NCBI RefSeq assembly: GCF_032854445.1
Contig: NC_088304.1
Coordinates: 33,038,810 to 33,102,809 of the forward strand
From: Liolophura sinensis
Taxonomy: Eukaryota; Mollusca; Polyplacophora; Chitonida; Chitonidae
Reading direction: 5' to 3'
Length of the DNA: 64,000 bases
The notes below the pieces were generated by a model. It was not told the DNA's origin and made no database searches. It was given only the letters and a program-made list of their open reading frames with translations. The position numbers and the translations under genes are program-made. This document shows positions 27,497 through 57,894 of this stretch, one piece after another (within the stretch, counting starts at the first letter, position 1; every line of letters begins with the position of its first letter).

Positions 27497-28169
27497 AGTT
27501 ACACGTGACCGAGGTGATGACTGTCAATATCTGTTTCCAGGTTGCTTATGTTCTTTTTTCTTCAGGCCTTCGTACATGTATAATTCGGTTTTTCGACGCC
27601 GTAGGGCCTACAATAAGAACTAGGGGGCTGCCGGCTTTCGTTACTGAAGTGTCCTTCAATAGGACAATGTACAAGCAGAACAGAACTATCCGAGATGTGA
27701 TTCTTTATCCCAAGGAGTCCTAGAACAACCACCAACTGTTTGATCACACCCTCGTGGTGTTTGAGGGGACAGAACGGTTTAACACAAGAGCTTGCGTTGA
27801 AGCACGTGGGCTGGGTCTGTATCATTTTAGGTACATGCTATCCGTGTGTGGCCAACCTCTGGTCAACCACTGGTCAAGCTGTCACGCTCTGTTGACCCTC
27901 TCTGTGTGAAATGGGACAGGTTCCTCATTAAACTTGTTCAGATATTGTCTTGTAAAAACATCCACTTAATCAATTCCTCATCGTTAGGTTCAGTCATTCA
28001 CATTTTCTGCCTGATTCAATTAAACACGGCTTAAAACGAGGAGCTCAGACAGATCGCTCTCACTGAGAATACAAGGAGTTGTCCGAGTGAAGTTCACTGC
28101 GGAACATTAGTCCAAGCAATTCAAACATGATTTTGTTTGATTACATTCTACTCCCCACATCCTTGTTCT

Positions 28170-28392
28170 GGGGCTGATTCGTCAAATCCATTTCTAAATT
28201 AAGTCAGAATTTGAAATGTGAGCTAAAGGTTCATTTTCTTGCTTTAGAAATTAAAATTTTGTCCACCTTATCGATATTACCCAAGACAAACGTGTCCAAA
28301 TTTCAGTTCCCGCTACCAAAAACTAAGCATTGTGAAGAGGTTTTAAATTTTGACATGGAATTGTCAAAATGACTTTATGAAATTGACCTATG
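28170..28392. mobile_element. Short MITE in unit 1
   Basis: GGGGCTGATTCGTCAAATCC at the left mirrors the right end, whose reverse complement reads GGTCAATTTCATAAAGTC. It matches the ends of the 980-bp element at 26,516 but lacks its interior. Confidence 0.65.
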
Positions 28393-28405
28393 GTTGAGGT
28401 GTAGG

Positions 28406-28640
28406 AGGTCAATCCGTCGCCGACGGGTTTAACACGCCAGCGCGGAGCAATGACTCAAGAGCCTCTTACCCATGTGGTCCCTGTGAGTTCAAGTCCAGCT
28501 GTGAGGTCTGCAAGCAACCTGCGAATGGTGCTGGTTTCCCCTGGTTTCCTCCAACCATAATGATACAGCCGCCGTTGTGTAGGCCTAAGTAAAATATTCT
28601 TGAGTACGTTGTAAAAAAACACCATCAAATAAATAAACAT
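28406..28640 (+). mobile_element. SINE-A in unit 1
   Basis: Diverged tRNA head (AACACGCCAGCGCGG), B-box-like GTGAGTTCAAGTCCAG, body CAGCCGCCGTTGTGTAGG and tail ACACCATCAAATAAATAAAC. Confidence 0.85.
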
Positions 28641-29303
28641 TAAATCAATCGCCTGAACTTTGGGGGCGTATACCATGTCCTCTTGTGATCGGACATTAGT
28701 TCAATTTTTAATATAAAAATGTGCAAACCATATGAGACAATGGGGTGGTAAACTGGACGTACCACTGACCACACTAAATAAGACATGGTGACAGTCGATT
28801 TAGTAAATAAGACAATATATATGAAGTGAAAATGTATGTTGGCCTTCATTCTTTTCACACATTTTCATCTACAGAGACAATTCTCAATACATTCTCACAT
28901 GCATACATTTGTATATGGTTAAATTCAGCTACTAATTAACTGTGATATTCAAGAGGTAGCAAAGCTTCATACCAAGGTACATGCACATTTTTAAGACAAG
29001 CAAGTTAACTCAGTAAGACAGTTACCGCTTAAGTTCTATGTCTAACTTAATTTACATATAACAACTGTCCTAAATTCAAGATATTTTAATTAAAGCGTGA
29101 CTATAGACAATATGCGATTCTTTATTCATCACACTGCGCTGAAGCGATGACACTACCGCACATTTTTCTAAACACAGTTACACATTGTATGCACCACTCA
29201 TACGTTACAGTAATGGAAACATGTAATAATTGTTACTGATTACAAATCAATGAGCGGTTTGTCGTAAAAATTGCTGAATCATACTCAACTACATGCGGAT
29301 AAA

Positions 29304-29428
29304 GTCTTGGGTTTCCTCCGGGCTCTGCCCGATTTCCACCGACCATAATGCTGGCCGCCGTCGTATTAGTGTGTACGGCGTATAACACCAGTCAAATAAA
29401 TAAATTAAAAAAAATAAATAAATAAATA
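29304..29428 (+). mobile_element. SINE-A 3' fragment in unit 1
   Basis: GGGTTTCCTCCGGGCTCTGC, GGCCGCCGTCGTATTAGTG, GTACGGCGTATAACACCAGT and an AAAT tail. It is truncated in the body. Confidence 0.85.
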
Positions 29429-29776
29429 TTGTTTGATTTCCCTCAAATATTGCCAGAATTTCAAAGTCGTGAATACATATATGGTTTTGACCGACCCACC
29501 CCCGAATTTGCTCGGTGTCCTCCAACCTTAATGCTGGTCACCGTCATATTCATAGTTTTAAGCAGTTGTGTACCTGGCAATCAACAAGATTGTGAACTGG
29601 TGATTTTTGCCCATTCCAAAAGTTCAAAGTACTAAAAGACACCAAAACTATCACATTTGAAAGCTAGACACATACTGATTACTTACAGGATTTCTTACCT
29701 AAAAGCTATGTGTTTCGTTTTTTCGTTGTCGACCTCAGTTGGGTTAAATTCGCTTTGTTTTCATCTCCAGTACCTT

Positions 29777-29820
29777 AGTCACGTGGCCAAAGGGTGGTCG
29801 GATGATTGGCTCAGCTATGA
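29777..29820. promoter_or_regulatory. E-box plus inverted CCAAT module in unit 1
   Basis: GTCACGTGGCCAAAG is followed about 15 bp on by GATGATTGGCTCAG (CCAAT on the minus strand). The same pair occurs in units 2 (about 37,450) and 4 (about 51,990); unit 3 has lost it by deletion. The E-box half survives in the diverged copy at 59.5 kb. A promoter role is only a suggestion. Confidence 0.3.
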
Positions 29821-30130
29821 CTTCAACATGAAACTATTAAGATGTGACACCTAAACATCCAAGTCTTATAAATAAATAAAATAAATCATGTGTAGCTTTA
29901 CTATTCTAAATAAATGTTAAGCTTTTTCTCTTGCCGATATACTACGTATAAACAAACGAACTACGATTCATTTTATTTTTCTTCTAATTAAAACCTATTT
30001 CCAAACATTCCAAAAGATATATCATTATTTCTTTTAAGTCTGTTCCCACTGCACGTTATCAACCTGGCACCAAGCTGTACATGTACCTATTTTCTGTCGT
30101 TACGGATGACATCCGCAACAGCAGACGGCG

Positions 30131-30215
30131 CTCGGGCGACGTCATGCATGCTCGTGTTATTTACATCACGCTTACGTAATGCTCGTCAGACATATTAGTC
30201 ACGATGACGTAACAG
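30131..30215. promoter_or_regulatory. CRE/bZIP-like motif cluster in unit 1
   Basis: GACGTCAT (30,138), TTACGTAA (30,172) and TGACGTAA (30,205) fall within 75 bp. The cluster is almost unchanged in units 2 (about 37,800-37,886), 3 (44,638-44,724) and 4 (52,341-52,425). A perfect TGACGTCA also occurs once per unit (32,037, 39,454, 46,557, 54,253). Confidence 0.35.
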
Positions 30216-30578
30216 TGGATTGTAAGAGTGTCAGTAAAACAAGTGGCTGTCTACGCAAAACACTGATGATCATGTCCGTGGGATGAAACCATCATGCACC
30301 TTGAAAAAATACAAACGTCTTTTCTTGAACGTGGAATATACTTTTAACACTGTACATAATCCTTTAGTCCCACATGGTATACCCACGTGCTTTTAATATA
30401 TGGGTTATATGAAGCAATTTATACATTTCTGAAGAATCTGTATTAATGGCACTTGTTGATGTTTTCCTTCACTCGCTGTTGGGTGTCCTGAACCGGCGTA
30501 AAGCCCTAGTACAGGGGTTAAATCAGTGGTCTTCCTACTACCAATCAATATATTCCGTCCACATTGAGTTCCACATCT

Positions 30579-30709
30579 GCAAAGTCGTCTCAGTGAAGCG
30601 GCACTGGATAAAAGAGCGGTGGAAACCCGTCCTGCAACAAGGAGGCAATTTACTCGCACTCTAAGGGCTCCTTCGACGCCATATGACTAAAAAATTGTTA
30701 AGTACGACC
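30579..30709 (+). mobile_element. SINE-B part in unit 1
   Basis: GGATAAAAGAGCGGTGGAAA, CAACAAGGAGGCA and CATATGACTAAAAAATTG...GTACGACC match the reverse complement of the SINE-B at 60,187-60,516. The tRNA head is absent. The recurrent 72-85 codon open frames here are SINE-derived. Confidence 0.8.
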
Positions 30710-32473
30710 TGAAAGTAATATAGCAAAGCCTAAGCACTCATTCACTAAACATATGCAAGTGAAATTTTGTGCGTCATATCTGATACATTTCGTCATATAT
30801 AGGCTACTTTCCAGGGGTTGTTGATTGACAACGGGATCTCCATCGACCGTCGTCGTTTCAATGAAATATTCTTGTACACATGCAAGCTTAAATTTTAAAC
30901 AATCTGGACAAACAGTGGAATACATAAACGGTCATGTCATATTTTATATACATACATATACACTATATCAAGTTTGTCCTCAAATCCACGAGTATCAAAA
31001 GAAGATAATGTCATTCTCTTGTCTACATTGATAATTAAATAAATAAAAAATAAATAAATAAATACACATGTAAAATTAAGCTATTCATGTACGGTCATGC
31101 TTGTCCAGTGCAGGTCGGAAGCTCTAGAGAGAACTCTCACCCACGTTAATACGTCATGCACGAGCGCTAATCATGTCGACAGCATGGTCGAAAATAGCTG
31201 ATTGTCTGATCGCCGGTGATGTCATTTGACAGTCACACGACGGAGATGAGAGGAAATGGAGGGCAGTCTTGGATGACTACCATGGGAGAATTATATCCTC
31301 TGTATTCCCTGGTACAGTGTACTCCTTGTCGTAAAACTCCCCAGTACACTGTCATTTCATCTGTTACAGTACTTCACGCCATGAATATACATGTGTATAG
31401 ACGTGGACATCAATGTTTACGAAGCACCTCTTTGTTTTTTTAATGATAAACGAAAGAATATTAGACATGAACAACACTTAATTTATTACTTCAAAAAAGC
31501 TTTTAAGGAAGCGCATACACTACTCCAGCCACATGTATATAGATATATGCAAATGCTCATGTATATATAAAATAAATTTCGACAACTGGAATATCAACAA
31601 TTGATTTCCCCGGACACGGCATCACTGATAACATTTCATGTTATATACATGTGAATGCCACGTGATTTTATTTTCTACACTTCTTTCCCCATGTTGTATG
31701 CTGGTGATAAAAAAAACGGCACTGAATCCCCTTTTTCAGAGGGCCCGACTTTGATTAATAGATACTCAATATCGAATATCGAATTTGACACAGATTTATC
31801 TACATGTGGTAGCCTACCTGTTTTTCATAGGGATATGTATCATAGGCAAAGGGTTTTCAAGCTATTTTGCCTGTCATACACGCGATAAAAGGTCAGAAGA
31901 AAGCATGGTCTGGTGACCTCATGATGCCGAACTGATATCATTTGCATGGGAGTTAATCCTTATAGGTTGAGAGTTTGTAATGAAACTGCAAACGAGGCTA
32001 GTGAGTCTGTAATCAGCAGCTAAACTTGCGTCTCCATGACGTCATCTAACCAAACAAACCAACATTTGTGACCACTGTATCGAGAGCTTCTAGGTCAAGT
32101 CGAGATTTATCGCGTATTTACTTCATTTTATTTCAACGCCATACGTCATCTGCCTATAAGACAGAGTAAACCGGATGGGCAGGAATAATCCCCGTAGTGC
32201 TTGTCCAAGTCACTTACACACCCGCGGACTCACAGTTGCAGCCGAACCAACAAGCCAAAGCTGGATTCGAACTTGTATATAGCTTTATGTAACTGAACCA
32301 AACGAAATATACATAAAACAGTTTATTTGTATAAGGCTGGTTTAATTTCAATAATATTAAATATTATTAAAATATATTAAGCTAACAAAGGTCAGACTGG
32401 AGTTGTACATTCTCGAAGAGTAATTTTATGGAACAGTTTTACCAGTTAATTCAAAATTTATTTGATTATTTCT

Positions 32474-32639
32474 TGATTTATTTATTTATGTAATTGAATG
32501 GGGATTTACAGCGTACTCGGAATGATTTCACTTAAGCTACGTCGGTCAACATTATGGTGGGAGAAAATCCGCCAGAGCCCAGGAGAAACCGACGACAATC
32601 TGCAGGTTGCTGGGGACCATCCCAAGTACTGGTGGAATG

Positions 32640-32670
<31 letters not shown>

Positions 32671-32680
32671 GGGGCTGCAT
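32474..32680 (-). mobile_element. SINE-A in unit 1 with (TG)n(G)n replacing its head
   Basis: (TTTA)n tail, GTCGGTCAACATTATGGTGG, CCAGAGCCCAGGAGAAACC and CTGCAGGTTGCTGGGGACC. Where the head should be there is a (TG)n followed by about 20 G. Confidence 0.85.
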
Positions 32681-33662
32681 GGGTCAAAATTTCTTATACT
32701 CTTTACAACTTTATAAACTGCTGGTTTCCAATATGAAATGACTTTAGCACTCGACCTTAATGCAGAAATAATTGTAGCGAAAAACAAATGCGTTTTTATT
32801 TTACCGAAGGGACAAAAAACGGTTATTAGTTCAAATATTTGAACAGATTTAAATATGTTCAAGTAAAGTTTAAAACAAAATGAAGAAAATTTAGATTTAG
32901 TGGTGTGTGATTGAAGATGATGGCATTTTCATTTATATTGTCGTTCCATCATCATGCATTCATGCTTCAATACACCTAATTATCCAAACAAATATGGTTT
33001 TCTTGTTTGGTTTATCTGCCTAAATTATATGTATGTATAATAATATCAAATGGTTAAGTCAAGTGTAAAGACATATCTTTGAAAGAGGTTTTTTTGTTGT
33101 TGTCATATTCTATATAACAAAGCGAGACACTGAGATTCACGAATGGGCGTAGTGATACCAGCGTGTCGGAATAAGGCAATTTATGCACGGGAATGACTGC
33201 ATGTGGCTACAGTGTTGATGTTCAGAAAAGATATTATTATAAAGTGAAATTCAATAAAATTTAAAGAACGCACGTGGACTAAATTAGAGCTCCTACTCTT
33301 GTTAAACATTAAGCTTCGGACAAAGACTTCAAAGGTAGCCCGGATTATAGCAGGTGTCATTTCAACATGATATAACGGCATGCAGATTTTAAGCGTGACA
33401 GCTGTAAAATATATATAGTACCCCAGCTGACTAATTCACTTAAAGCCTAATTGTTCTTGCTACACCCGTCCCAGCCCTCGGGCACATGTGGTCGAGTCTT
33501 GAATCCTGTACTAGCTCGTCCGATCGAGGCTTCATACAGGAGGTAAATCATGATATGGCATCACGCAAGCTCAGACTGTTTTATCATAATCACAAAATGT
33601 ACAGGAGAGTGGGACAAAGTGTAACTGCAAATATGAAGTCTGTATACACTTCGTGTATGGGT

Positions 33663-33800
33663 GCAACCTGCGGAGGTTCGCGGGTTTCCCCCAGGCTCTG
33701 CTCGGTTTCCTCCCACCATATCACTGGCCGCCGTCGCATAAGTGAAATATTCTAAGTGAGTACGGCGTAAAACACCAATCAAATAAATAATTAAATAAAT
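33663..33800 (+). mobile_element. SINE-A 3' part in unit 1
   Basis: CAACCTGCGGAGGTTCGCGG, TTTCCTCCCACCATATCACT, GGCCGCCGTCGCATAAGTG, GTACGGCGTAAAACACCAAT and an AAAT tail. Confidence 0.88.
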
Positions 33801-33836
33801 CTATGTGTGCATGTATATAAATATGAATGCATAAGT

Positions 33837-34157
33837 TTTAACGTCGTATTTAAGAAATTTTTAGTGACGACGAAAAGTGATTAGGTATGTGCACATATAT
33901 TGTGTCTTCTTGTGGCAGGGCGAGTCCATGCCGACAAAGTGCTGGCGCCATTGAAGTATCACGCCAAAGACACCAGACATGACACCCAACCACACAAATT
34001 GTACAGGCACCGGGCCAACGGGTCATGTTTCCTTGCTCTAACCTCTCAGCGCTGAGTGCCAAGCGAGGTAGCATGCAGCAGGTACCAAGTCTTTGGTATG
34101 ACCAGGCCCAGGTTTGATCCCGAGGTCTGCCAACTTCGAGGCGGACATTGTAACCAT
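33837..34157 (-). mobile_element. SINE-B in unit 1, nearly complete
   Basis: Body end AACGTCGTATTTAAG and GACGACG, centre TCTTGTGGCAGGGCGAGTCC and GACACCAGACATGACACCC, and the tRNA head at the high end (TTTGATCCCGAGGTCTGCC, GAGGCGGACATTGTAACCA). Confidence 0.85.
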
Positions 34158-35327
34158 GTATGTAGTCATTGTTTACAGCAAATTAATGACAAACATTTGT
34201 GGACATAAAATGACGTGTTACGCAGTGCTTATTTATTTATATGCAGGCTCCCGTTCGACCTTTGGCATATTGGAGAAAGTCAAGATAACACGAGAGTTCC
34301 GCTGACCACTTACTGCCACCGGCGTCCCGACAGCAATGTGAACAAAGAAAATCTAGAAAATCCGAAATTCAATGATATTGAAACTCACGTCAAGATATCT
34401 ATCGTCACTACGCCTAGCTATTGTCTATCCTCAAACATCAATGTCAAAGTGCCATTGTGCACACTTTTAATTATTTCATTTGATTCACACAACCTCGGAG
34501 GCCCAAGGGTAACAGTGAAGATTTAAGGTCTCCACATTCCTTTTCGTATACATCTTCCCGACGGAAGGTGGGGGTGGGTGGGGGGTGATGTCGGTGGATG
34601 ACATTAACAGTTCAGGCTGTTACGTAATAGAAATACCTGACCGTGTAAGACAAGTTGATGGGAGTTGTCGTCCTTTATGTTCGAAGTGGGGATTTCCCTT
34701 TCCGGGCGCATTGCGATACGCATTACACCACACAAATCCGTTCACTTAGCACGGCTAATTTGAAGTCTGAACAATACTATCGATACTACCTGATGGATGG
34801 TCCACACTTGCGTACATATAATGCTGTAGGTCTATAAACAAGGAATGTGGTCAGTATATCAAACCTTTGATGTGATCAGTATATAATCGACCTGTGCCAG
34901 CCAAGCCCACTCTTGTACCTCACTCACATGTGCATGTCGTTGTTACAAACGTAACGAAACCTGTTAAGATAACAGTTGCTGCATATGAGGAAATTCATCG
35001 TTTTATTTTAAGGGAAAATATAAGCATACTTTCAAACACCAGTGTCATGATTTAAAAATTTCATTGTCAATTGTCTTACGTCATACATTCTAAAGAGTTC
35101 ACTTATAAGTTAAACAGCGGTCAGATTTATGTACATATTAAGGAAATCGGTGTGCCCGGAGTACATTTATACCCGACTCACTCGCTGGCGTAAATTAATT
35201 TAAACGGCACAGAGAAACTGTGGGCATGGTTCACAATAGCACGATGGCGTGATCCAAAATCACCACAGATTTCTATTTGACGTAGGCAAATGCCTACACA
35301 TTTACTTTTGGAAATTCGAAATTCCTT

Positions 35328-35397
35328 TCCGGCCATACGTGGTAAAGTCTGGCAGCAACCTGCGAATGGTGCGGGATTTTCCCGCTTTCCTCTTTTC
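35328..35397 (+). mobile_element. SINE-A internal fragment at the unit 1/2 junction
   Basis: CCGGCCATACGTGGTAAAGT, GCAACCTGCGAATGGTGCGG and TTTTCCCGC match the middle of SINE-A. The same piece lies at the 2/3 and 3/4 junctions (42,794 and 49,864) but not in front of unit 1. Confidence 0.65.
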
Positions 35398-36008
35398 TTC
35401 AGGCCTTCATACATGTTTAGTTCTTTCTGGATGAACCTACTTTAAGAATTAAGGGACTGCCGGCTTTCGTACTGAAACTGTCCTTCAAGACGACAATGTA
35501 CAAGCAGAAAAGAACTATCCGAGATGTGATTATTTTATCCCAAGGAGTTCTAGGACAACCACCAACTGTTTGATCACACCCTCGTGGTGTTTGAGGGGAC
35601 AGAACGGTTTAACACAAGAGCTCGCGTTGACGCACGTGGGCTGGGTCTGTATTATTTTAGGTACATGCTATCCGTGTGTGGCCAACCTCTGGTCAACCAC
35701 TGGTCAAGATGTCACGCTCTGTTGACCCTCTCTGTGTGAAATGGGACAGGTTCCTCATTAAACATGTTCAGATATTGTCTGGTAAAAACGTCATCCTGAT
35801 GAATTCCTCATCGTTAGGTTCAGTCATTCACATTTTCTGCCTGATTCAATTAAACACGGCTTAAAAACGAGGAGCTCAGACAGACTGCTCTCACTGAGAA
35901 TACAAGGAGTTGTCCGAGTGAAGTTCACTGCGGAACATTAGTCCAAGCAATTCAAATATGATTTCGCTTGATTATCTTTTTATATGCTACTCCCCACATC
36001 CTTGTTCT

Positions 36009-36107
36009 GGGGCTGAATTCGTCAAAACCATTTCTGACTTATGTCAGAATTGAAATGCGATCTTAAGGCTAATTTTTCTGCTTAGCAATTAAAATTTTGT
36101 CCACCTT
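36009..36107. mobile_element. Truncated MITE in unit 2
   Basis: The left half only (GGGGCTGAATTCGTCAAAAC to TTTTGTCCACCTTG). It is joined directly to the SINE-A B-box region by a deletion that unit 4 shares. Confidence 0.65.
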
Positions 36108-36108
36108 G

Positions 36109-36289
36109 TGACCCATGCGGTCGCTGTGAGTTCGAGTAGTTTCAGGCCAAACGTTGTAAGACCTGTCAGCAACCTGCGAATGGTGCGGGTTTCCCTGATT
36201 TCCTCTTACCATAATGCTATAGTCGCCGTTGTATAAGTCGAATATTCTTGAGTACGTTGTATAAAAACACCATCAAAGAAATAAATATT
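36109..36289 (+). mobile_element. SINE-A in unit 2 (head partly deleted)
   Basis: Starts at CCCATGCGGTCGCTGTGAGT, then AATGGTGCGGGTTTCCC, TAGTCGCCGTTGTATAAG and ACACCATCAAAG. Confidence 0.85.
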
Positions 36290-36973
36290 AAATCAATCCC
36301 CTGAACTTTAAGAGCATATAGCATGTTGTCTTGTGATGGGACATTAGTCCAATGTTTAATATGAAAATGTGCAAACCAGATGTGCAAACCAGATGAGAAA
36401 ATGGGGTGGTAAAATGGCCGTACCACTGACCACACTAAATAAGACATGGTGACAGTCGATTTAGTAAATAAGACAATATATACGCTTAAATATTCAGTAA
36501 AAATTTATGCTGGCCTTCATTCTTTGCACACATTTTCATCTATAGAGACATTCCTCGATGCTTCTCACATGCATATATTTGTATATGGTTAAATTCAGCT
36601 ACTAATTAACTGTGATATTCAAGAGGTAGCAAAGCTTCATACCAAGGTACATGCACATTTTTAAGAGAAGCAAGTTAACTCAGTAAGACCGTTACCGCTT
36701 AAGTTCTATGTCTAACTTAATTTACATATAACGACTGTCCTAAATTCAAGATATTTTAATTAAAGCGTGACTATAGACAATATGCGATTCTTTATTCATC
36801 ACACTGCGCTGATGCGATGGCACTACCGCACATTTTTCTAAACACAATTACACATTGTATGCACCACCCATACGTTACAGTAATGGTAACACATAATAAT
36901 TGTTACTGATTACAAATCAATGAGCGGTTTGTCGTAAAAATTGCTGAATCATACTCAACTACATACGGATAAG

Positions 36974-37100
36974 GTCTTGGGTTTCCTCCGGGCCCTGCCC
37001 GATTTCCACCGACCATAATGCTGGCCGCCGTCGTATTAGTGTGTACGGCGTAAAACACCAGTCAAATAAATAAATAAAAAAAAAATAAATAAATAAATAT
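36974..37100 (+). mobile_element. SINE-A 3' fragment in unit 2
   Basis: Equivalent to the element at 29,304 in unit 1, with a longer A-rich tail. Confidence 0.85.
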
Positions 37101-38248
37101 TGTTTGGTTTGCCTCAAATATTGCCAGAATTTCAAAGTCGTGAATACATATATGGTTTTGACCGACCCACCCCCGAATTTGCTCGGTGTCCTCCAGCCTT
37201 AATGCTGGTCACCGTCATATTCATAGTTTTAAGCACCTGTGAACCTGGCAATCAACAAGATTGTGAACTGGTGATTTTTGCCCATTCCAAAAGTTCAAAG
37301 TACTAAAAGACACCAAAACTATCACATTTGAAAGCTAGACACATACTGATTACTTACAGGATTTCTTACCTAAAAGCTATGTGTTTCGTTTTTTCGTTGT
37401 CGACCTCAGTTGGGTTAAATTCGCTTTGTTTTCATCTCCAGTACCTTAGTCACGTGGCCAAAGGGTGGTCGGATGATTGGCTCAGCTATGACTTCAACAT
37501 GAAACTATTAAGATGTGACACCTAAACATCCAAGTCTTATAAATAAATAAAATAAATCATGTGTAGCTTTACTATTCTAAATAAATGTTAAGCTTTTTCT
37601 CTTGCCGATATACTACGTATAAACAAACGAACTACGATTCATTTTATTTTTCTTCTAGTTAAAACCCATCTTCAAATATTCCAAAAGATATATCATTATT
37701 TCTTTTAAGTCTGTTCCCACTGCACGTTATCAACCTGGCACCAAGCTGTACATGTACCTATTTTCTGTCGTTACGCATGACATCCACAGCAGCAGACGGC
37801 GCTTGGGCGACGTCATGCATGCTCGTGTTATTTACATCACGCTTACGTAATGCTCGTCAGACATATTAGTCACGATGACGTAACAGTGGATTGTAAGAGT
37901 GTCAGTAAAACAAGTGGCTGTCTACGCAAAACACTGATGATCATGTCCGTGGGATGAAACCATCATGCACCTTGAAAAAATACAAACGTCTTTTCTTGAA
38001 CGTGGAATATACTTTTAACACTGTACATAATCCTTTAGGCCCACATGGTATACCGTGTTTTTAATATATGGGTTATATGAAGCAATTTATACACTTCTGA
38101 AGAATCTGCATTTATGGCACTAGTTGTTGTTTTCCTTCACTCGCTGTTGGGTGTCCTGAACCGGCGTAAAGCCTTAGTACAGGGGTTAAATCAGTGGTCT
38201 TACTACTACCAATCAATATATTCCGTCCACATTGAGTTCCACATCTGC

Positions 38249-38378
38249 AAAGTCGTCTCAGTGAAGCGGCACTGGATAAAAGAGCGGTGGAAACCCGTCC
38301 AGCAACAAGGAGGCAATTTACTCGCACTCTAAGGGCTCCTTCGACGCCATATGAGTAAAAAATTGTTAAGTACGACCT
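38249..38378 (+). mobile_element. SINE-B part in unit 2
   Basis: Equivalent to 30,579-30,709; ends GTACGACCTAA. Confidence 0.8.
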
Positions 38379-39890
38379 AAAAGTAATATAGCAAAGCCTA
38401 AGCACTCATTCACTAAACATATGCAAGTGAAATTTTGTGCGTCATGTCTAATACATTTCGACATATATAGGCTACTTTCCAGGGGTTGTTGATTTACAAC
38501 GGGCTATTCATGTAGAGTCAGGCTGGTCCAGTGCAGGTCGGAAGCTCTCGAGAGTACTCTCACCCACGTTAATATGCACGAGCGCTAATTACGTCGACAG
38601 CATGGTCGAAAATAGCTGATTGTCTGATCGCCGGTGATGTCATTTGACGGTCACACGACGGAGATGAGAGGAAATGGAGGGCAGTCTTGGATGACTACCA
38701 TGGGAGAATTATATCCTCTATATTCCCTGGTACAGTGTACTCCTTGTCGGAAAGTTCCCCAGTACACTGTCATTTCATCTGTTACAGTACTTCACGCCAT
38801 GAATATACATGTGTATAGACTTGGACATCAATGTTTACGAAGCACGTCTTTGTTTTTTAATGATAAACGGAAGAATATTAGACATGAACAACACTTAATT
38901 CATCACTTTAAAAAAGCTTTTATGGAAGTGCATACACTACTCCAGCCACATGTATATAGATATATGCAAATGCTCATGTATGTATGAAATAAATTTGGAA
39001 TAGCAACAATTGATTTCCCCGGACACGGCATCGCTGATAACATTTCATGTTGTATACATGTGAATGCCACGTGATTTTATTTTCTACACTTATTTCCCCA
39101 TGTTGTATGCTGTTGATAAAAAAATCGGCACTGAATTCACTTGATCTGAGGGCCCGACTTTGTTCAACAGATACTCAATATCGAATATCGAATTTGACAC
39201 ACGGATTTATCTACATGTGATAGCCTACCTGTTTTACATAGGGATATGGATATGTATCATAGGCAAAGGGTTTTCAAGCTATTTTGCCTGTCATGCACGC
39301 GATAAAAGGTCAGAAGAAAGCATGGTCTGGTGACCTCATGATGCCGAACTGATATCATTTGCATGGGAGTTAATCCTTATAGGTTGAGAGTTTGTAACGA
39401 GACTGCAATCGAGGCTAATGAGTCTGTAATCAGCAGCTGAACTGGCGCCTCCATGACGTCATCTAACCAAACAAACCAACATTTGTGACCACTGTATCGA
39501 TAGCTTCTAGGTCAAGTCGAGATTTATCGCGTATTTACTTTGTTTTATTTCAACGCCATACGTCATCTACCTATAGGACAGAGTAAACCGGATGGGCAGG
39601 AATACTCCCCGTAGTGCTTGTCCAAGTCACTTACACACCCGCGGACTCACAGTTGCAGCCGAACAAACTAGCAAAAGCTGGATTCGAACTTGTATATAAC
39701 TTTATGTAACTGAACCAAATGAAATATACATAAAACAATTTATTTGTATGAGGCTGGCTTAATTTCAATAATATTAAATATTATTAAAATATATTAAGCT
39801 AACAAAGGTCAGACTGGAGTTGTACATTCTCGAAGAGTAATTTTATGGAACAGTTTTACCAGTCAATTCAAAATTTATTTGATTATTTCT

Positions 39891-40097
39891 TGATTTATTT
39901 ATTTATGCATTTGAATGGGGATTTACAGCGTACTCGGAAATATTTCACTTAAGCTACGTCGGTCAACATTATGGTGGGAGAAAATCCGCCAGAGCCCAGG
40001 AGAAACCGACGACAATCTGCAGGTTGCTGGGGACCATCCCAAGTACTGGTGGGATGGTCTGTGTGTGTGTGTGTGTGTGGGGGGGGGGGGGTCTGCA
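39891..40097 (-). mobile_element. SINE-A in unit 2 with (TG)n(G)n
   Basis: Equivalent to 32,474-32,680. It has the same loss of head to (TG)n(G)n, which units 3 and 4 do not share. Confidence 0.85.
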
Positions 40098-41079
40098 TGG
40101 GTCAAAATTTCTTATACTCTTTACAACTTTATAAACTGCTGGTTTCCAATATGAAATGACTTTAGCACTCGACCTTAATGCAGAAATAATTGTAGCGAAA
40201 AACAAATGCGTTTTTATTTTACCAAAGGGCCAAAACCAGCTATTAGTTCAAATATTTGAACAGATTTAAATATGTTCAAGTAAAGTTTAAAACAAAATGA
40301 AGGAAATTTAGATTTAGTGGTGTGTGATTGAAGATGATGGCATTTTCATTTATATTGTCGTTCCATCATCATGCATTCATGGTTCAATAAACCCACTTAT
40401 CCAAACAAATATGGTTTTCTTGTTTGGTTTATCTGCATAAATTATATGTATGTATAATAATATCAAATGGTTAAGTCAAGTGTAAAGACATATCTTCGAA
40501 AGAGGTTTTTTTGTTGTTGTCATATTCTATATAACAAAGCGAGACACTGAGATTCACGAATGGGCGTAGTGATACCAGCGTGTCAGAATAGGGCAATCTA
40601 TGAACGAGAATGACTGCATGTGGCTACAGTGTTGATGTTCAGAAAAGATATTATTATAAAGTGAAATTCAATAAAATTTAAAGAACGCACGTGGACTAAA
40701 TTATAGCTCCTACTCTTGTTAAACATTAAGCTTCGGACAAAGACTTCAAAGGTAGCCTGCATTATAGCAGGTGTCATTTCAACATGATATAACGGCATGC
40801 AGATTTTAAGCGTGACAGCTGTAAAATATATATAGTACCCCAGCTGACTAATTCACTTAAAGACCAATTGTTCTTGCTACACCCGTCCCATCCCTCGGGC
40901 ACATGTGGTCGAGTCTTGAATCCTGTACTAGCTCGTCCGATCGAGGCTTCATACAGGAGGTAAATCATGATATGGCACCACGGAAGCTCAGACTGTTTTA
41001 TCATAATCACAAAATGTACAGGAGAGTGTGACAAAGTGTAACTGCAAATATGAAGTCTGTATACACTTCGTCTATGGGT

Positions 41080-45089: not shown

Positions 45090-45219
45090 AAAGTCGTCTC
45101 AGTGAAGCAGCACTGGATAAAAGAGCGGTGGAAATCCGTCCAGCAACAAGGAGGCAATTTACTTGCACTCTAAGGGCTCCTTCGACGCCATATGACTAAA
45201 AAATTGTTAAGTACGACCT
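45090..45219 (+). mobile_element. SINE-B part in unit 3
   Basis: Equivalent to 30,579-30,709. Confidence 0.8.
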
Positions 45220-46971: not shown

Positions 46972-46972
46972 T

Positions 46973-47008
<36 letters not shown>

Positions 47009-47201
47009 TTAATTGAATGGGGTTTTACAGCGTACTCGGGAATATTTCACTTAAGCTTCATGATGGTTTCAGAGCCCAGGAGAAACCGACGAGAATCTGC
47101 AGGTTGCTGGGGACCATCCCAAGTACGACTGGGGGTGGGGGGGGAGCCTGCACGGGCTCCTGGGTCACTAGCGCGCTAACCAGTAGGCTCGGAGGCCTCA
47201 G
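46972..47201 (-). mobile_element. SINE-A in unit 3 with intact tRNA head
   Basis: (TTTA)n tail at the low end and head GCTCCTGGGTCACTAGCGCG, CTAACCAGTAGGCTCGGAGG at the high end. Part of the body near 47,060 is deleted. Confidence 0.88.
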
Positions 47202-48198
47202 GAGTCACAATTTCTTTTACCCTTTACAACTTTACAAACTGTTGGTTTCCAATATTAAATGACTTTAGCGCTCGACCTTAATGCAGAAATAATTGTAGCG
47301 AAGAACAAATGCGTTTTTATTTTACCAAAGGGCCAAAACCAGCTATTAGTTCAAATATTTGAACAGATTTAAATATGTTCAAGTAAAGTTTAAAACAAAA
47401 TGAAGGAAATTTAGATTTAGTGGTGTGTGATTGAAGATGATGGCATTTTCATTTATACTGTCGTTCCATCATCATGCATTCATGGTTCAATAAACCCACT
47501 TATCCAAACAAATATGGTTTTCTTGTTTGGTTTATCTGCCTAAATTATATGTATGTATAATAATATCAAATGGTTGAGTCAAGTGTAAAGACATATCTTC
47601 GAAAGAGGTGCTTTTTGTTTGTTTTTCAGTGATATTCTATATCACAAAACTGAGATTCACGAATGGGCGTAGTGATACCAGCGTGTCGCAATGGGACAGT
47701 CTAAAAGGCCCCTTTTACATACACGAGAGTGATTGCATGTGGCTACAGTGTTGATGTTCAGAAAAGATATTATTATAAAGTGAAATTCAATAAAATTAAA
47801 AGAACGCATGTGGACTAAATTAGAGCTCCTACTCTTGTTAAACATTAAGCTTCGGACAAAGACTTCAAAGGTAGCCTGCATTATAGCAGGTGTCATTTCA
47901 ACATGATTTAATGGCATGCAGATTTTAAGCGTGACAGCTGTAAAATATATATACTACTCCAGCTGACTAATTCACTTAAAGCCTAATTGTTCTTGCTACA
48001 CCCGTCCCAGCCCTCGGGCACACGTGGTCGAGTCTTGAATCCTGTACTAGCTCGTCCGATCGAGGCTTCATACAGGAGGTAAATCATGATATGGCATCAC
48101 GCAAGCTCAGACTGTTTTATCATAATCACAAAATGTACAGGAGAGTGTGACAAAGTGTAATCGCAAATATGAAGTCTGTATACACTTCGTGTATGGGT

Positions 48199-48337
48199 GC
48201 AACCTGCGGAGGTTCGCGGGTTTCACCCGGGCTTTGCTCGGTTTCCTCCCACCATATCACTGGCCGCCGTCGCATAAGTGAAATATTCTAAGTGAGTACG
48301 GCGTAAAACACCAATCAAATAAATAATTAAATAAATC
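48199..48337 (+). mobile_element. SINE-A 3' part in unit 3
   Basis: Equivalent to 33,663-33,800 and nearly identical to it. Confidence 0.88.
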
Positions 48338-48372
48338 TATGTGTGCATGTATATAAATATGAATGCGTAAGT

Positions 48373-48694
48373 TTTAACGTCGTATTTAAGAAATTTTTAG
48401 TGACGACGAGGAGTGATTAGGTATGTGTACATATATTGTGTCTTCTTGTGGCAGGGCGAGTCCATGCCGACAAAGTGCTGGCGCCACTGAAGTATCACGC
48501 CAAAGACACCAGACATGACACCCAACCACACAAATTGTACAGGCACCGGGCCAACGGGTCATGTTTCCTCGCTCTAACCTCTCAGCGCTGAGTGCCAAGC
48601 GAGCTAGCATGCAGCAGGTACCAAGTCTTTGGTATGACCAGGCCCAGGTTTGATCCCGAGGCCTGCCAACTTCGAGGCGGACATTGTAACCATG
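48373..48694 (-). mobile_element. SINE-B in unit 3
   Basis: Equivalent to 33,837-34,157, sharing the ACCAGGCCCAGGTTTGATCC variant with unit 1. Confidence 0.85.
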
Positions 48695-49863
48695 TATGTG
48701 GTCATTGTTTACAGCAAATTAATGACAAACATTTGTGGACATAAAATGACGTGTTACGCAGTGCTTATTTATTTATATGCAGACTCCCGTTCGACCTTTG
48801 GCATATTGGAGAAAGTCAAGATAACACGAGAGTTCCGCTGACCACTTACTGCCACCGGCGTCCCGACAGCAATGTGAACAAAGAAAATCTAGAAAATCCG
48901 AAATTCAATGGTATTGAAACTCACGTCAAGATATCTATTGTCACTACGCCTAGCTATTGTCTATCCTCAAACATCAATGTCAAAGTGCCATTGTGCACAC
49001 TTTTAATTATTTCATTTGATTCACACAACCATGGAGGCCCAAGGGTAACAGTGAAGATTTAAGGTCTCCGCATTCCTTTTGGTATACATCTTCCCGACGG
49101 AAGGTGGGGGTGGGTGGGGGTGGTGTCGGTGGATGACATTAACAGTTCAGGCTGTTACGTAATAGAAATACCTGACCGTGTAAGACAAGCTGATGGGAGT
49201 TGTCGTCCTTTATGTTCGAAGTGGGGATTTCCCTTTCCGGGCGCATTGCGATACGCATTACACAACGCAAATCCGTTCACTTAGCACGGCTAATTTGAAG
49301 TGTGAACAATACTATCGATACTACCTGATGGATGGTCCACACTTGCGTACATATAATGCTGTAGGTCTATAAACAACGAATGTGGTCAGTATATCAAACC
49401 TTTGATGTGATCAGTATATAATCGACCTGTGCCAGCCAAACCGACTCTTGTACCTCACTCACATGTGCATGTCGTTGTTACAAACGTAACGAAACCTGTT
49501 AAGATAACAGTTGCTGCACATGAGGAAATTCATCGTTTTATTTTAAGGGAAAATATAAGCATACTTTCAAACACCAGTGTCATGATTTAAAAATTTCATT
49601 GTCAATTGTCTGACGTCAAACATGCTAAAGAGTTCACTTATAAGTTAAACGGCGGTCAGATTTATGTACATATTAAGGAAATCGGTGTGCCCGGAGTACA
49701 TTTATACCCGACTTACTCGCTGGCATAAATTAATTTAAACGGCACAGAGGAACTGTGGGCATGGTTCACAATAGCACGATGGCGTGATCCAAAATCACCG
49801 CAGATTTCTATTTGACGTAGGCAAATGCCTACACATTTACTTTTGGAAATTCGAAATTCCTTT

Positions 49864-49929
49864 CCGGCCATACGTGGTAAAGTCTTCCCGCAACCTGCGA
49901 ATGGTGCGGGATTTTCCCGCTTTCCTCTT
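49864..49929 (+). mobile_element. SINE-A internal fragment at the unit 3/4 junction
   Basis: Same fragment as at 35,328-35,397. Confidence 0.65.
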
Positions 49930-50529
49930 TTCTTCAGGCCTTCATACATGTTTAGTTCTTTCTGGATGAACCTACTTTAAGAATTAAGGGACTGCCGGCT
50001 TTCGTACTGAACTGTCCTTCAAGACGACAATGTACAAGCAGAACAGAACTATCTGAGATGTGATTATTTTATCCCAAGGAGTCCTAGGACAACCTCCAGC
50101 TGTTTGATCACACCCTCGTGGTGTTTGAGGGGACAGAACGGTTTAACACAAGAGCATGCGTTGAATCACGTGGGCTGGGTCTTTATCATTTTAGGTACAT
50201 GCTATCCGTGTGTGGCCAACCTCTGGTCAAGCTGTCACGCTCTGTTGACCCTCTCTGTGTGAAATGGGACAGGTTCCTCATTAAACATGTTCAGATATTG
50301 TCTGGTAAAACGTCATCCTAATGAATTCCTCATCGTTAGGTTCAGTCATTCACATTTTCTGCCTGATTCAATTAAACACGGCTTAAAAACGAGGAGCTCA
50401 GACAGACTGCTCTCACTGAGAATACAAGGCGTTCTTCGAGTGAAGTTCACTGCGGAACATTAGTCCAAGCAATTCAAACATGATTTCGTTTGATTATCTT
50501 TTTTTATGCTACTCCCCACATCCTTGTTC

Positions 50530-50629
50530 TGGTGCTGAATTCGTCAAAACCATTTCTGACTTATGTCAGAATTTAAATGCGATCTTAAGACTAATTTTTC
50601 TGCTTAGCAATTAAAATTTTGTCCACCTT
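50530..50629. mobile_element. Truncated MITE in unit 4
   Basis: Same left half and same deletion junction as in unit 2 (36,009-36,107). Confidence 0.6.
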
Positions 50630-50814
50630 GCGACCCATGCGGTCGCTGTGAGTTCGAGTAGTTTCAGGCCAAACGTTGTAAGACCTGTCAGCAACCTGCG
50701 AATGGTGCGGGTTCCCCTGGTTTCCTCTTACCATAATGCTATAGTCGCCGTTGTATAAGTCGAATATTCTTGAGTACGGCGTATAAAAACACCATCAAAG
50801 AAATTAATTTTAAA
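50630..50814 (+). mobile_element. SINE-A in unit 4 (head partly deleted)
   Basis: Equivalent to 36,109-36,289. Confidence 0.85.
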
Positions 50815-51495
50815 TCAATCCCCTGAACTTTAAGAGCATATAGCATGTTGTCTTGTGATGGGACATTAGTCCAATGTTTAATATAAAAATGTGCAAACCA
50901 GATGTGCAAACCAGATGAGAAAATGGGGTGGTAAACTGGCCGTACCACTGACCACACTAAATAAGACATGGTGACAGTCGATTTAGTAAATAAGACAATA
51001 TATACGCTTAAATATTTAGTAAAAATTTATGTTGGCCTTCATTCTTTTCACACATTTTCATCTATAGAGACATTCCTCGATGCTTCTCACATGCATATAT
51101 TTGTATATGGTTAAATTCAGCTACTAATAAAGTGTGATATTCAAGAGGTAGCAAAGCTTCATACCAAGGTACATGCACATTTTTAAGAGAAGCAAGTTAA
51201 CTCAGTAAGACAGTTACCGCTTAAGTTCTATGTCTAACTTAATTTACATATAACGACTGTCCTAAATTCAAGATATTTTAATTAAAGCGTGACTATAGAC
51301 AATATGCGATTCTTTATTCATCATACTGCGCTGATGCGATGGCACTACCGCACATTTTTCTAAACACAATTACACATTGAATGTACCACCCATACGTTAC
51401 AGTAATGGTAACATGTAATAATTGTTACGGATTACAAATCAATGAGCGGTTTGTCGTAAAAATTGCTGAATCATACTCAACTACATACGGATAAG

Positions 51496-51632
51496 GTCTT
51501 GGGTTTCCTCCGGGCTCTGTCCGATTTCCACCGACCATAATGCTGGCCGCCGTCGTATTAGTGAAATATTCTTGAGTACGGCGTAAAACACCAGTCAAAT
51601 TAATAAAATAAATAAATAAATAAATAAATAAA
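51496..51632 (+). mobile_element. SINE-A 3' part in unit 4
   Basis: Equivalent to 29,304-29,428 but keeps GTGAAATATTCTTGAGTACG, which units 1 and 2 have lost. Confidence 0.85.
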
Positions 51633-52789
51633 CATTGTTTGGTTTGCCTCAAATATTGCCAGAATTTCAAAGTCGTGAATACATATATGGTTTTGACCGA
51701 CCCACCCCCACCCCGACTTTGCTCGGTGTCCTCCAACCTTAATGCTGGTCACCGTCATATTCATAGTTTTAAGCACCTGTGTACCTGGCAATCAACAAGA
51801 TTGTAAACTGGTGATTTTTGCCAATTCCAAAAGTTCAAAGTACTAGAAGACACCAAAACTGTCACATTTGAAAGCTAGACACATACTGATTACTTACAGG
51901 ATTTCTTACCTAAAAGCTATGATTTACGTTTTTTCATTGTCGACCTCAGTTGGGTTAAATACGTTTTGTTTTCATCTCCAGTACCTTAGACACGTGGCCA
52001 AAGGGTGGTCGGATGATTGGCTCAGCTATGACTTCGCCATGAAACTATGAAGATGTGACACCTAAACATCCAAGTCTTATAAATAAATAAAATAAATCAT
52101 ATGTAGCTTTACTATTCTAAATAAATGTGAAGCTTTTTCTCTTGTCGATATACTACGTATAAACAAACGAACTACGATTCATTTTATTTTTCTTCTAATT
52201 AAAACCCATTTCCAAACATTGCAAAAGATATATCATTATTTCTTTTAAGTCTGTTCCCACTGCACGTTATCAACCTGGCACCAAGCTGTACATGTACCTA
52301 TTTTCTGTCGTTACGGATGACATCCACAACAGCAGACGGCGCTCGGGCGACGTCATGCATGTTCGTGTTATTTACATCACGCTTACGTAATGCTCGTCAG
52401 ACATATTAGTCACGATGACGTAACAGTGGATTGTAAGAGTGTCAGTAAAACAAGTGGCTGTCTGTGTAAAACACTGATTATCATGTCCATGGGATGAAAC
52501 CATCATGCACCTTGAAAAAATACAAACGTCTGTTCTTGAACGTGGAATATACTTTTAACACTGTACATAATCCTTTAGGCACACATGGTATACCCGTGCT
52601 TTTAATATATGGGTTATATGAAGCAATTTTTACATTTCTGAAGAATCTGCATTAATGGCGCTTGTTGATATTTTCTTTCACTCGCTGTTGGGTGTCCTGA
52701 ACCGGCGTAAAGTCCTAGTACAGGGGTTATATCAGTGGTCTTACTACTAGCAATCAATATATTCCGTCCACGTTGAATTCCACATCTGC

Positions 52790-52919
52790 AAAGTCGTCTC
52801 AGTGAAGCAGCACTGGATAAAAGAGTGGTGGAAATCCGTCCTGCAACAAGGAGGCAATTTACTTGCACTCTACGGGCTCCTTCGACGCCATATGACTAAA
52901 AAATTGTTAAGTACGGCCT
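52790..52919 (+). mobile_element. SINE-B part in unit 4
   Basis: Equivalent to 30,579-30,709. Confidence 0.8.
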
Positions 52920-54680
52920 GAAAGTAATATAGCAAAGCCTAAGCACTCATTCACTAAACATATGCAAGTGAAATTTTGTGCGTCATATCTGATACATTTC
53001 GACATATATAGGCTACTTTCCAGGGGTTGTTGATTTACAACGGGATCTCCATCCATTATATACAGGCCGTCGTCGTTTCAATGAAATATTCTTGTACCCA
53101 TGCAGGTTTAAATTTTAAACAATCTGGACAAACAGTGGAATACATAAACGGTCATGTCATATTTTATATACATAAATATACACTATATTAAGTTTGTCCT
53201 CAAATCCGCGAGTGTCAAAAGAAGATAATGTCATTCTCTTGTCTACATGGATAAATAAATTAAAAAAAATAAATAAATAAACATGTAAAATTAAGCTATT
53301 CATGTACGGTCAGGCTTGTCCAGTGCAGGTTGGAAGCTCTCGAGAGAACTCTCACCCACGTTAATACGTCATGCACGAGCGCTAATCATGTCGACAGCAT
53401 GGTCGAAAATAGCTGATTGTCTGATCGCCGGTGATGTCATTTGACAGTCACACGACGGAGATGAGAGGAAATGGAGGGCAGTCTTGGATGACTACCATGG
53501 GATAATTATATCCTCTGTTTTCCCTGGTACAGTGTACTCCTTGTCGGAAAGTTCCCCAGTACACTGTCATTTCATCTGTTACAGTACTTCACGCCATGAA
53601 TATACATGTGTATAGACTTGGACATCAATGTTTACGAAGCAACTCTTGTTTTTTAATGATAAACGGAAGAATATTAGACATGAACAACTCTTAATTCATT
53701 ATTTTAAAGAAGCTTATATGGAAGCGCATACACTACTCCAGCCACATGTATATAGATATATGCAAATGCTCATGTATGTTTAAAATAAATTTCGACAACT
53801 GGAATATCAACAATTGATTTCCCCGGACACGGCATCACTGATAACATTTCATTTTATATACATGTGAATGGCACGTGATTTTATTTTCTACACTTCTTTC
53901 CCCATGTTGTATGCTGGTAATAAAAAAAAACGGCACTGAATCCCCTTTTTCAGAGGGCCCTATTTTGTTCAACAGATACTCAATATCGAATATCGAATTT
54001 GACACACAGATTTATCTACATGTGGTAGCCTACCTGTTTTACATAGGGATATGTATCATAGGCAAAGGGTTTTCAAGCTATTTTGCCTGTCATGCACGCG
54101 ATAAAAGGTCAGAAGAAAGCATGGTCTGGTGACCTCATGATGCCGAACTGATATCATTTGCATGGGAGTTAATCCTTATAGGTTGAGAGTTTGTAACGAG
54201 ACTGCAAACGAGGCTAATTAGTCTGTAATCAGCAGCTAAACTGGCGTCTCCATGACGTCATCTAACCAAACAAACCAACATTTGTGACCACTGTATCGAT
54301 AGCTTCTAGGTCAAGTCGAGATTTATCGCGTATTTACTTTGTTTTATTTCAACGCCCTACGTCATCTACCTATAGGACAGAGTAAACCGGACGGGCAGGA
54401 ATACTCCCCGTAGTGCGTGTCCAAGTCACTTACACACCCGCGGACTCACAGTTGCAGCCGAACAAACTAGCAAAAGCTGGATTCGAACTTGTATATAGCT
54501 TTATGTAACTGAACCAAACGAAATATACATAAAACAATTAATTTGTATAAGGCTGGCTTAATTTCAATAATATTAAATATTATTAAAATGTATTAAGCCA
54601 ACAAATGTCAGACTGGAGTTTATTCGCGAAGAGTAATTTTATGGAACAATTTACCGCTTAATTCAAAACTGATTGATTGA

Positions 54681-54960
54681 TTTATTTAATAATTTTTTTT
54701 TATTTATTTATTTATTTATTTTTTTATTTATTTATTTATTTTTTTTTTTATTGATGTAATTGAATGGGGTTTTACAGCGTACTTGGGAATATTTCACTTA
54801 AGCTACTGCGGTCAACATGATGGTTTCAGAGCCCAGGAGAAACCGACGAGAATCTGCAGGTAGCTAGGGACCATCCCAAGTACGACTGGGGGGGGGGGGG
54901 GGGGGGCTGCATGGTCTCCTGGGTCACTAGCGCTCTAACCAGTAGGCTCGGAGGCCCCAG
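54681..54960 (-). mobile_element. SINE-A in unit 4 with tRNA head
   Basis: A long (TTTA)n and T-rich tail, body, a run of about 20 G, then head CTCCTGGGTCACTAGCGCTC and TAGGCTCGGAGGCCCC. Confidence 0.88.
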
Positions 54961-55920
54961 GAGTCAAAATTTCTTATACCCTTTACAACTTTACAAACTG
55001 CTGGTTTCCAATATTAAATGACTTTAGCGCTCGACCTTAATGCAGAAATAATTGTAGCGAAGAACAAATGCGTTTTTATTTTACCAAAGGGCCAAAACCA
55101 GCTATTAGTTCAAATATTTGAACAGATTTAAATATGTTCAAGTAAAGTTTAAAACAAAATGAAGGAAATTTAGATTTAGTGGTGTGTGATTGAAGATGAT
55201 GGCATTTTCATTTATACTGTCGTTCCATCACCATGCTTTCCTGCTTCAATACACCTAATTATCCAAACAAATATGGTTTTCTTGTTTGGTTTATCTGCAT
55301 AAATTATATGTATGTATAATAATATCAAATGGTTAAGTCAAGTGTAAAGACATATCTTCGCAAGAGGTTATTTTTTTGGTGTGATATTCTATATCACAAA
55401 GCGGGACACTGAGATTCACGAATGGGCGTAGTGGTACCAACGTGTCGCAATGGGACAGTGATTGCATGTGGCTACAGTGTTGATGTTCGAAAAAGATATT
55501 ATTATAAAGTGAAATTCAATAAAATTAAAAGAACGCATGTGGACTAAATCAGAGCTCCTACTGTTGTTAAACATTAAGCTTTGGACAAAGACTTCAAAGG
55601 TAGCCCGGATTATAGCAGGTGTCATTTCAACATGATATAACGGCATGCAGATTTTAAGCGTGACAGCTGTAAAATATGTATAGTACCCCAGCTGACTAAT
55701 TCACTTAAAGCCTAATTGTTCTTGCTACACCCGTCCCAGCCCTCGGGCACATGTGGTCGAGTCTTGAATCCTGTACTAGCTAGTCCGATCGAGGCTTCAT
55801 AGGTAAATCATGATATGGCATCACGCAAGCTCAGACTGTTTTATCATAATCACAAAATGTACAGGAGAGTGAGAGAAAGTGTAACTGCAAATATGAAGCC
55901 TGTATACACTTCGTGTATGG

Positions 55921-56046
55921 GTGCAACCTGCGGAGGGCTCTGCTCGGTTTCCTCCCACCATGTCGCTGGCCACGGTCGTATAAGTATAATATTCTATATA
56001 AGTGAGTACGGCGTAAAACACCAATCAAATAAATAATTAAATAAAT
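55921..56046 (+). mobile_element. SINE-A 3' part in unit 4
   Basis: Equivalent to 33,663-33,800 with an internal loss of the CGCGGGTTTC segment. Confidence 0.85.
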
Positions 56047-56082
56047 CTACATGTACATGTATATAAGTATGAATGCATAAGT

Positions 56083-56409
56083 TTTAACGTCGTCTTTAAG
56101 AATTTTTTAGTCATATGACGACGAGGAGTGATTAGGTATGTGTACATATATTGTGTCTTTTTGTTGCAAGGCGAGTCCATGCTGACAAAGTGCTGGCGCC
56201 ATTGAAGTATCACGCCAAAGACACCAGACATGACACCCAACCGCACAAATTATACAGGCACCGGGCCAATGGTTCATGTTTCCTTGCTCTAACCTCTCAG
56301 TGCTGAGCGCCACGGGAGGTAGCATGCAGCAGGTATCAAGTCTTTGGTATGACCCGACCAGGGTTTGATCCCGAGGTCTGCCAACTTCGAGGCGGACATA
56401 GTAAGCATG
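56083..56409 (-). mobile_element. SINE-B in unit 4
   Basis: Equivalent to 41,259-41,584, with the GACCCGACCAGGGTTTGATC variant shared with unit 2. Confidence 0.85.
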
Positions 56410-57894
56410 TATGTAGTCATTGTTTACAGCAAATTAATGACAAACATCTGTGGACATAAAATGACGTGTTACGCAATGCTTATTTATTTATATGCAGGCC
56501 TCCGATCGACCTTTGGCATATTGGAGAAAGTCAAGATAACACGAGAGTTCCGTTGACCACTTACTGCCACCGGCGTCCCGAGATCAATGTGAACAAAGAG
56601 AACCTAGAAAATCAGAAATTCAATGGTATTGAAACTCACGTCGATATCTGACAAGCGATTGGCCAGTGGTAAAGGTCTGTACGCAGTAAATCTGTAAGTA
56701 AACTCTACAGACAATAATATGTCTATCTCGAAACATCAATGTCAAAGTGCCATTGTGCACATTTTCATTATTTCACTTGATTCAGACAACCTCGGAGGCC
56801 CAAGGGTAACAGTGAAGATTTAAGGTCTCGTAGACCAGGTGACACTCCACATTCCTCTTGGTATACATCTCCCAGACGGGGAGGGGGGTCCATTAACACG
56901 TTCGTAACAGTCCAGGCTGTTGCGTCATAGAAATACCTGGCCGTGTAAGACAAGTTGATGGGAGTTGTCGTCCTTCATGTTCGAAGTGGGGATTTCCCTT
57001 TCCGGGCGCATTGCGATACACCATTATATCACACGAACCGGTTCACTTAGCACGGCTTATTTGAAGGGTAAACAATACTATCAGTGACCTGATGGATGGC
57101 CCACACTTGCGTACATATAATGCTGTAGGTCTGTAAACAAGGAATGTGGTCAGTATATCAAACCTTTGATCTGATCAGTATATAATCGACCTGTGCCAGC
57201 CAAGCCGACTCTTGTACCTCACTCACATGTGCATGTCGTTGTTACAAACGTAATGAAACCTGTCAAGATAACAGTTGCAGCACATGAGGAAATCCATCGT
57301 TTCATTTTAAGAGAAAATATAAGCATACTTTCAAACACCAGTATCATGATTTAAAAATTTCATTGTCAATTGTCTGACGTCATACGTGCTAAAGAGTTCA
57401 CTTATAAGTAAAACAGCGGTCAAATTTATTCATGTACATATTAAGGAAATCGGTCTGCGCGGAGTACACTTATAACCGACTCACTCACTAGTGCAAATTA
57501 ATTTAGAGAAACTTGCAAGAGTTGGGTTCGAAGCAGTGATGTCCGATAGAGGTTAGGGGCAGATCGGCTGCCACAAGAGAAACACTTAAGCTGAAAGGGC
57601 AAATCATGGGTCACAATGGCGTGATGGTCTGATCAAAAATCACGGCAGATTTGTGTGGGGAGTACGCAAACGCTTACACATTTACTTTTGAAAATTCGAC
57701 AAATGTGTGATCCGCGTGTGGAACACTTACCTACTGATTCGTCTGAACCGTTACTGACGATAATTCCAAGCAAGACCAAGGAGTCATGTAACATATTCCA
57801 ATTCACCACTTATCCGTATGGATCGAGTGAGGCTTTCAGTCAGAAGAGTTGTGAGGTTCCTGACTAAAGCCCCGACAAGACTATCCAACATCAC

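Follow-up and report, generated by a model that had tools for sequence, protein, structure and literature searches.

A four-unit tandem array in the chiton Liolophura sinensis is probably an old local segmental duplication of a composite non-coding block

A stretch of 64,000 nucleotides of the chiton Liolophura sinensis (assembly GCF_032854445.1, contig NC_088304.1, positions 33,038,810 to 33,102,809; hereafter the window, whose coordinates are used throughout) contains no N and carries four large units arranged in tandem. The published Liolophura assembly was first named Liolophura japonica, and the species was later corrected to L. sinensis (PMC12441733). The four head-to-tail units with continuous similarity, proposed in an initial annotation made from the letters alone, were borne out by self-BLAST and by a four-way alignment (Table 1). 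The landmark TTCAGGCCTTC is found at 27,561, 35,398, 42,862 and 49,933, exactly where that annotation had placed it, and has no further occurrence in the window (0.01 expected by shuffling). Self-BLAST gave long collinear matches between units, such as 29,893-38,511 against 44,402-53,052 with 95% identity over 8.7 kb, and in the four-way alignment the units diverge pairwise by 4.8-7.2%. The start of the array had been set at 27,545, but homology begins further upstream, with a degenerate remnant of the unit head, u0, at about 25,981-26,275. Its part 26,144-26,275 was also recovered in a whole-genome search with stretches of the unit. An extension of u0 to 27,490 was considered and dropped: the matches at ~26,512 and 27,309-27,489 fall on the dispersed repeat D. 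A minisatellite of 46/92 bp lies at 26,691-26,895, just upstream of the array and beyond u0.

Table 1. Units of the array, the upstream remnant, and the features located within unit 1 or at its border.
Feature	Position	Strand	Length or identity	Remarks
u0, degenerate remnant of unit head	25,981-26,275	+	65-67% identity	
Unit 1	27,553-35,389	+	7,837 bp	self-BLAST, four-way alignment
Unit 2	35,390-42,853	+	7,464 bp	two losses: ~250 bp at 38,502, and ~200 bp near the head that unit 4 also lacks
Unit 3	42,854-49,924	+	7,071 bp	three larger deletions 3' of 44,140
Unit 4	49,925 to ~57,700	+	~7,776 bp	divergence within the array is highest over its final 200-300 bp
Dispersed repeat D	28,167-28,388	not assigned		matched repeatedly on other contigs (query 615-836; best 40 of 1,115 candidates)
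SINE-like piece 1	28,429-28,647	+		matches in flanks
SINE-like piece 2	29,292-29,412	+		mostly deleted from unit 3
Dispersed repeat E	29,594-29,825	not assigned	~70% to other copies	best 40 of 303 candidates
Stretch with the two longest invariant runs	30,011-30,252	not assigned	runs of 91 and 88 bp	includes two CRE-like sites that every unit retains
Dispersed repeat C	30,582-30,712	not assigned		
SINE-like piece 3	32,477-32,627	-		
SINE-like piece 4	33,663-33,802	+		
Dispersed repeat B	33,822-34,157	not assigned		many contigs (query ~6,278-6,613; best 40 of 20,902 candidates)
SINE-like fragment, unit 1/unit 2 junction	35,322-35,383	+		counterparts at the two other internal junctions but not at unit 4's right edge

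Unit 1 is a composite in which nine pieces of dispersed repeat, together ~1.6 kb, alternate with other sequence. Some of these pieces are presumably related to short interspersed nuclear elements (SINEs), the label SINE-like being taken from no repeat library. Repeat D may be the miniature inverted-repeat transposable element (MITE) of the initial annotation, as a candidate only, and the strongest hairpin in a scan of unit 1 sits in repeat B. That old SINE and MITE insertions occupy matching positions in each copy holds for most copies, but the insertions are not whole in every one: deletions removed most of SINE-like piece 2 from unit 3, and part of repeat D is missing from units 2 and 4. The sequence between the repeats behaves differently from them, as far as it was searched. 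Four inter-repeat stretches of unit 1, making up 4,441 of its 7,837 bp, were compared with the whole assembly (609,464,459 bases in 632 contigs) in a search where the absence of a match does not prove rarity. The matches were the four units, u0 and six simple repeats of ~40 bp elsewhere; two of the stretches gave nothing outside the array, the six simple repeats came from a third and u0 from another. For 29,826-30,570, all matches outside the array among the best 40 of 303 candidates fall in the neighbouring repeat E. The array thus consists of adjacent copies of a large block, locus-specific over the part searched, which carry common repeats at matching positions with losses in units 2, 3 and 4. 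Since the repeats are co-positioned, the searched remainder is locus-specific and neither a known protein family nor a known RNA family turned up, the array points to amplification of a composite non-coding block, as had been suggested.

The history of the units can be read in part from the four-way alignment, which has 6,426 gap-free columns, 708 of them variable. Sites that group the units in pairs number 75 for 1+2/3+4, 75 for 1+3/2+4 and 14 for 1+4/2+3. Sites of the first two kinds are clustered along the alignment, forming 17 runs against a mean of 76 and a minimum of 58 in 2,000 shuffles; with the block that surrounds a SINE-like piece excluded there are still 17 runs (mean 48, minimum 34). 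Insertions or deletions (indels) of at least 3 bp common to two units follow the same two groupings, with 5 and 7 events for 1+3/2+4, 2 and 3 for 1+2/3+4, and none for 1+4/2+3. By place, ~200 columns are absent from units 2 and 4, ~28 are present only in 2 and 4, and 25 only in 3 and 4. Because both pairings occur in blocks and the indels lie in different places, a doubling of a two-unit block followed by patchwise exchange between neighbours is suggested. The ends of the array stand apart. Over 164 compared columns, divergence between the tail of unit 4 and the other units is 27-29%, against 3.3-6.6% among those units at the same place. For the head of unit 1 the corresponding values are 9.7-10.6% from each of the other three and 2.9-6.6% among those three. 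Diverged ends are expected where exchange homogenises the interior of an array. The most alike inter-unit blocks differ by 1.4-2.0%. Some of the exchange is recent, because these values come near the heterozygosity of the genome, given as 1.24% (PMC11068029), and because units 1 and 2 share 415 identical bases. The three internal junctions have in common one SINE-like fragment joined to the start of the unit, which is absent at the right edge.

On this evidence a composite non-coding block of ~7.5 kb was probably duplicated in tandem at this locus long ago. The array resembles an ordinary local segmental duplication and gives no sign of being a novel type of element. The first tandem copy would have arisen from a break inside a SINE-like element, because the three internal junctions share the one fragment that the right edge lacks. 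The resulting two-unit block would then have doubled, units 1 and 2 giving rise to 3 and 4, and afterwards neighbours would have swapped patches by gene conversion or unequal crossing over. Most likely it is recombination and drift that maintain the array, which would itself be without function. Read in this way, the locus is a compact and readable molluscan case of how a locus-specific block becomes a tandem array that is patched by exchange, and the old remnant and old right edge show the array to be older than the similarity of its most alike blocks suggests.

Several observations weigh against this account or parts of it. A SINE-like fragment inserted later and then amplified could look identical at the junctions to one left by the first break. 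Interior blocks reach 10-12% divergence for several pairs of units (alignment columns 4,800-5,850 and 6,600-7,500); because of this the left end is distinct by its pattern and not by its level, and the right edge alone would clearly be the oldest part. The invariant runs of 91 and 88 bp exceed the 95% point for the longest run in shuffled columns (48-78, 5-95%). Two short frames, 34,876-35,007 and 30,110-30,283, have ratios of nonsynonymous to synonymous change (dN/dS) of 0.10 and 0.17. Third positions hold 6 of the 8 variable sites in the first and 7 of the 10 in the second; in frames picked from 47, this synonymous lean is weak. Finally, the unit may hold short exons, the scans having covered mainly frames of at least 60 amino acids, or a long non-coding RNA.

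Among the alternatives, a true macrosatellite, whose unit number would vary among individuals and which might have a role in chromatin or expression, survives best, although it is unlikely. Macrosatellites are defined as having units of several kb at one or two chromosomal places (PMC3018141), and the array does have units of that size at a single place in this one assembly, together with traces of exchange among them. However, there are only four units, and they lie 4.8-7.2% apart. Nor was a CTCF-like core enriched: the window has 25 matches against 20.3 expected, and 20 of 100 shuffles reached 25; a single match, with two mismatches, is nonetheless repeated in every unit. The name would require copy-number variation between individuals, and the array is known from one assembly.

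A cluster of unrecognised genes with short exons, or of non-coding RNA genes, one per unit, is rather less probable still. It would draw on the two frames with mostly third-position variation, but these were chosen from a set that fits chance. A total of 47 frames of 35 codons or more stay open throughout the four units, the longest of 106 codons, and 20 column shuffles gave 28-49 shared frames with a longest of 67-109 codons; in number and in greatest length there are no conserved frames beyond this range. A 59-codon extension of the frame 34,876-35,007 matches the four units only and holds a stop in one of the four copies, and the frame at the unit head is interrupted in unit 3, while in unit 4 it has shifted. 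Unit 1 overlaps 35 stop-to-stop frames of 60 amino acids or more; 34 of them (all but 35,240-35,434 +) were scanned against Pfam, as were seven further frames, five in or across other units or at their borders and two shorter and within unit 1, and none gave a match above cut-off. Weaker hits (E 0.041-0.12) to DUF6680, TrwC, an ASCIZ zinc finger, DUF7786, RSN1_TM, a Nab2-like zinc finger and DUF6485 were judged to be chance. The window contains neither a tRNA nor an Rfam match that reaches the gathering score, in a search that covers described families. A protein-coding cluster thus lacks both an excess of conserved frames and a known domain, within a scan that covered mainly the longer frames, and a cluster of known non-coding RNAs lacks any match to a described family. 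The view that the unit holds no credible protein gene or rRNA agrees with these searches, in which no known protein or RNA family appeared; the non-coding RNA cluster offered as an option found no support in Rfam or in the tRNA search.

It is very doubtful that what was amplified is a regulatory core at about 30,011-30,252, so that more enhancers or promoters of long non-coding RNA would be present and the number of units would tune a neighbouring gene. The motif TKACGTMA, resembling the cAMP response element (CRE) and chosen after inspection of the sequence, has 20 matches in the window, where 4.24 would be expected, and 19 of them fall inside the array; CRE-like sites have a density of 0.63 per kb in the array against 0.17 in the flanks. 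The sites persist from unit to unit, but the excess amounts to about five sites copied four times. When words were ranked by their enrichment per unit, ACGTCAT, TTACGTA and TACGTCA came 13th, 17th and 27th of 8,129 seven-letter words, but among 2,080 six-letter words TACGTC came 57th and ACGTCA only 86th. The evidence for the CRE-like sites and the stretch around them as a regulatory signal is therefore mixed, and they offer a weak lead. Retention of CpG was also considered as a hallmark of the array and rejected: the observed/expected ratio is 0.75-0.90 in 4-kb steps, but many parts of the 124-kb region are alike.

That the array is built from a large transposable element or its remains is highly improbable: about one fifth of the unit is dispersed repeat, but the searched rest has no copy elsewhere in the assembly, the unit as such is not dispersed, and no transposon domain above cut-off was seen in the Pfam scans, so that the profile (hidden Markov model) match to an autonomous transposon envisaged by the initial annotation did not appear. 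An origin of the four units in misassembly can be practically dismissed, for although the high-fidelity (HiFi) reads are given as only 14X in coverage with a mean of 8,347 bp, shorter than the array (PMC11068029), the units have hundreds of differences, share at most 415 identical bases and have no stretch longer than 577 bp with five or fewer differences, so that single reads should separate the copies. Extra near-identical copies may have been lost during assembly.

The surroundings of the array contain several recognisable exons. Upstream of the window, on the minus strand (L010 2,897-3,235 and L011 7,121-7,585), matches to Guanylate_cyc (E 7.2e-36) and, just below the family cut-off, to ANF_receptor (E 1.2e-5) are consistent with exons of a probable receptor guanylate cyclase. 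Downstream of the window, an exon on the minus strand (L013 8,697-8,945) encodes a phospholipase A2 domain (Phospholip_A2_2, E 1.5e-20). Within the window, the frames 18,689-19,021 + and 20,360-20,611 + are exon-like and would encode a lysine/arginine-rich protein, without a match in Pfam. A presumed likeness of 6,866-7,123 - to the Golgi SNARE GOSR1 was left unsupported by Pfam, which gave only a coiled coil below cut-off, and a tentative C-type lectin label likewise received no support from the Pfam scan. No gene was seen to span the array, which may nevertheless lie within an intron. Low-CpG steps of the 124-kb region fall at ~2-22 kb, at 62-70 kb and at -26 to -22 kb. The observed/expected ratio is 0.27-0.43 in the 4-kb steps at 2,001-18,000 and from 62,001 in the window to ~70,000 in the flank; it is 0.19 in the step that holds ~-25,250 to -22,140, where the flank has a tandem repeat of coding length, with long open frames of a short repeated peptide. 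In molluscs, low CpG often reflects past methylation of gene bodies in the germline.

A narrow search of the open literature found no account of such an array in chitons, and comparison was made with systems known elsewhere. Like the macrosatellites DXZ4, D4Z4 and RS447, the array has units of several kb placed head to tail at one place, but in contrast to them, as they are described in PMC3018141, it has four units only. According to the same source, the units of RS447 and D4Z4 carry reading frames, whereas the unit of the array has no frame with a known domain. Of the three options that had been offered, simple segmental amplification fits best, and the macrosatellite fits in unit size and single location only. 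Tandem segmental duplications with concerted evolution form a general class, and no essential difference from it was seen: in its members, as in the Liolophura array, a composite block with its old repeats is set head to tail at one locus, the similarity among units is mosaic, and a diverged remnant and a diverged right edge accompany the copies.

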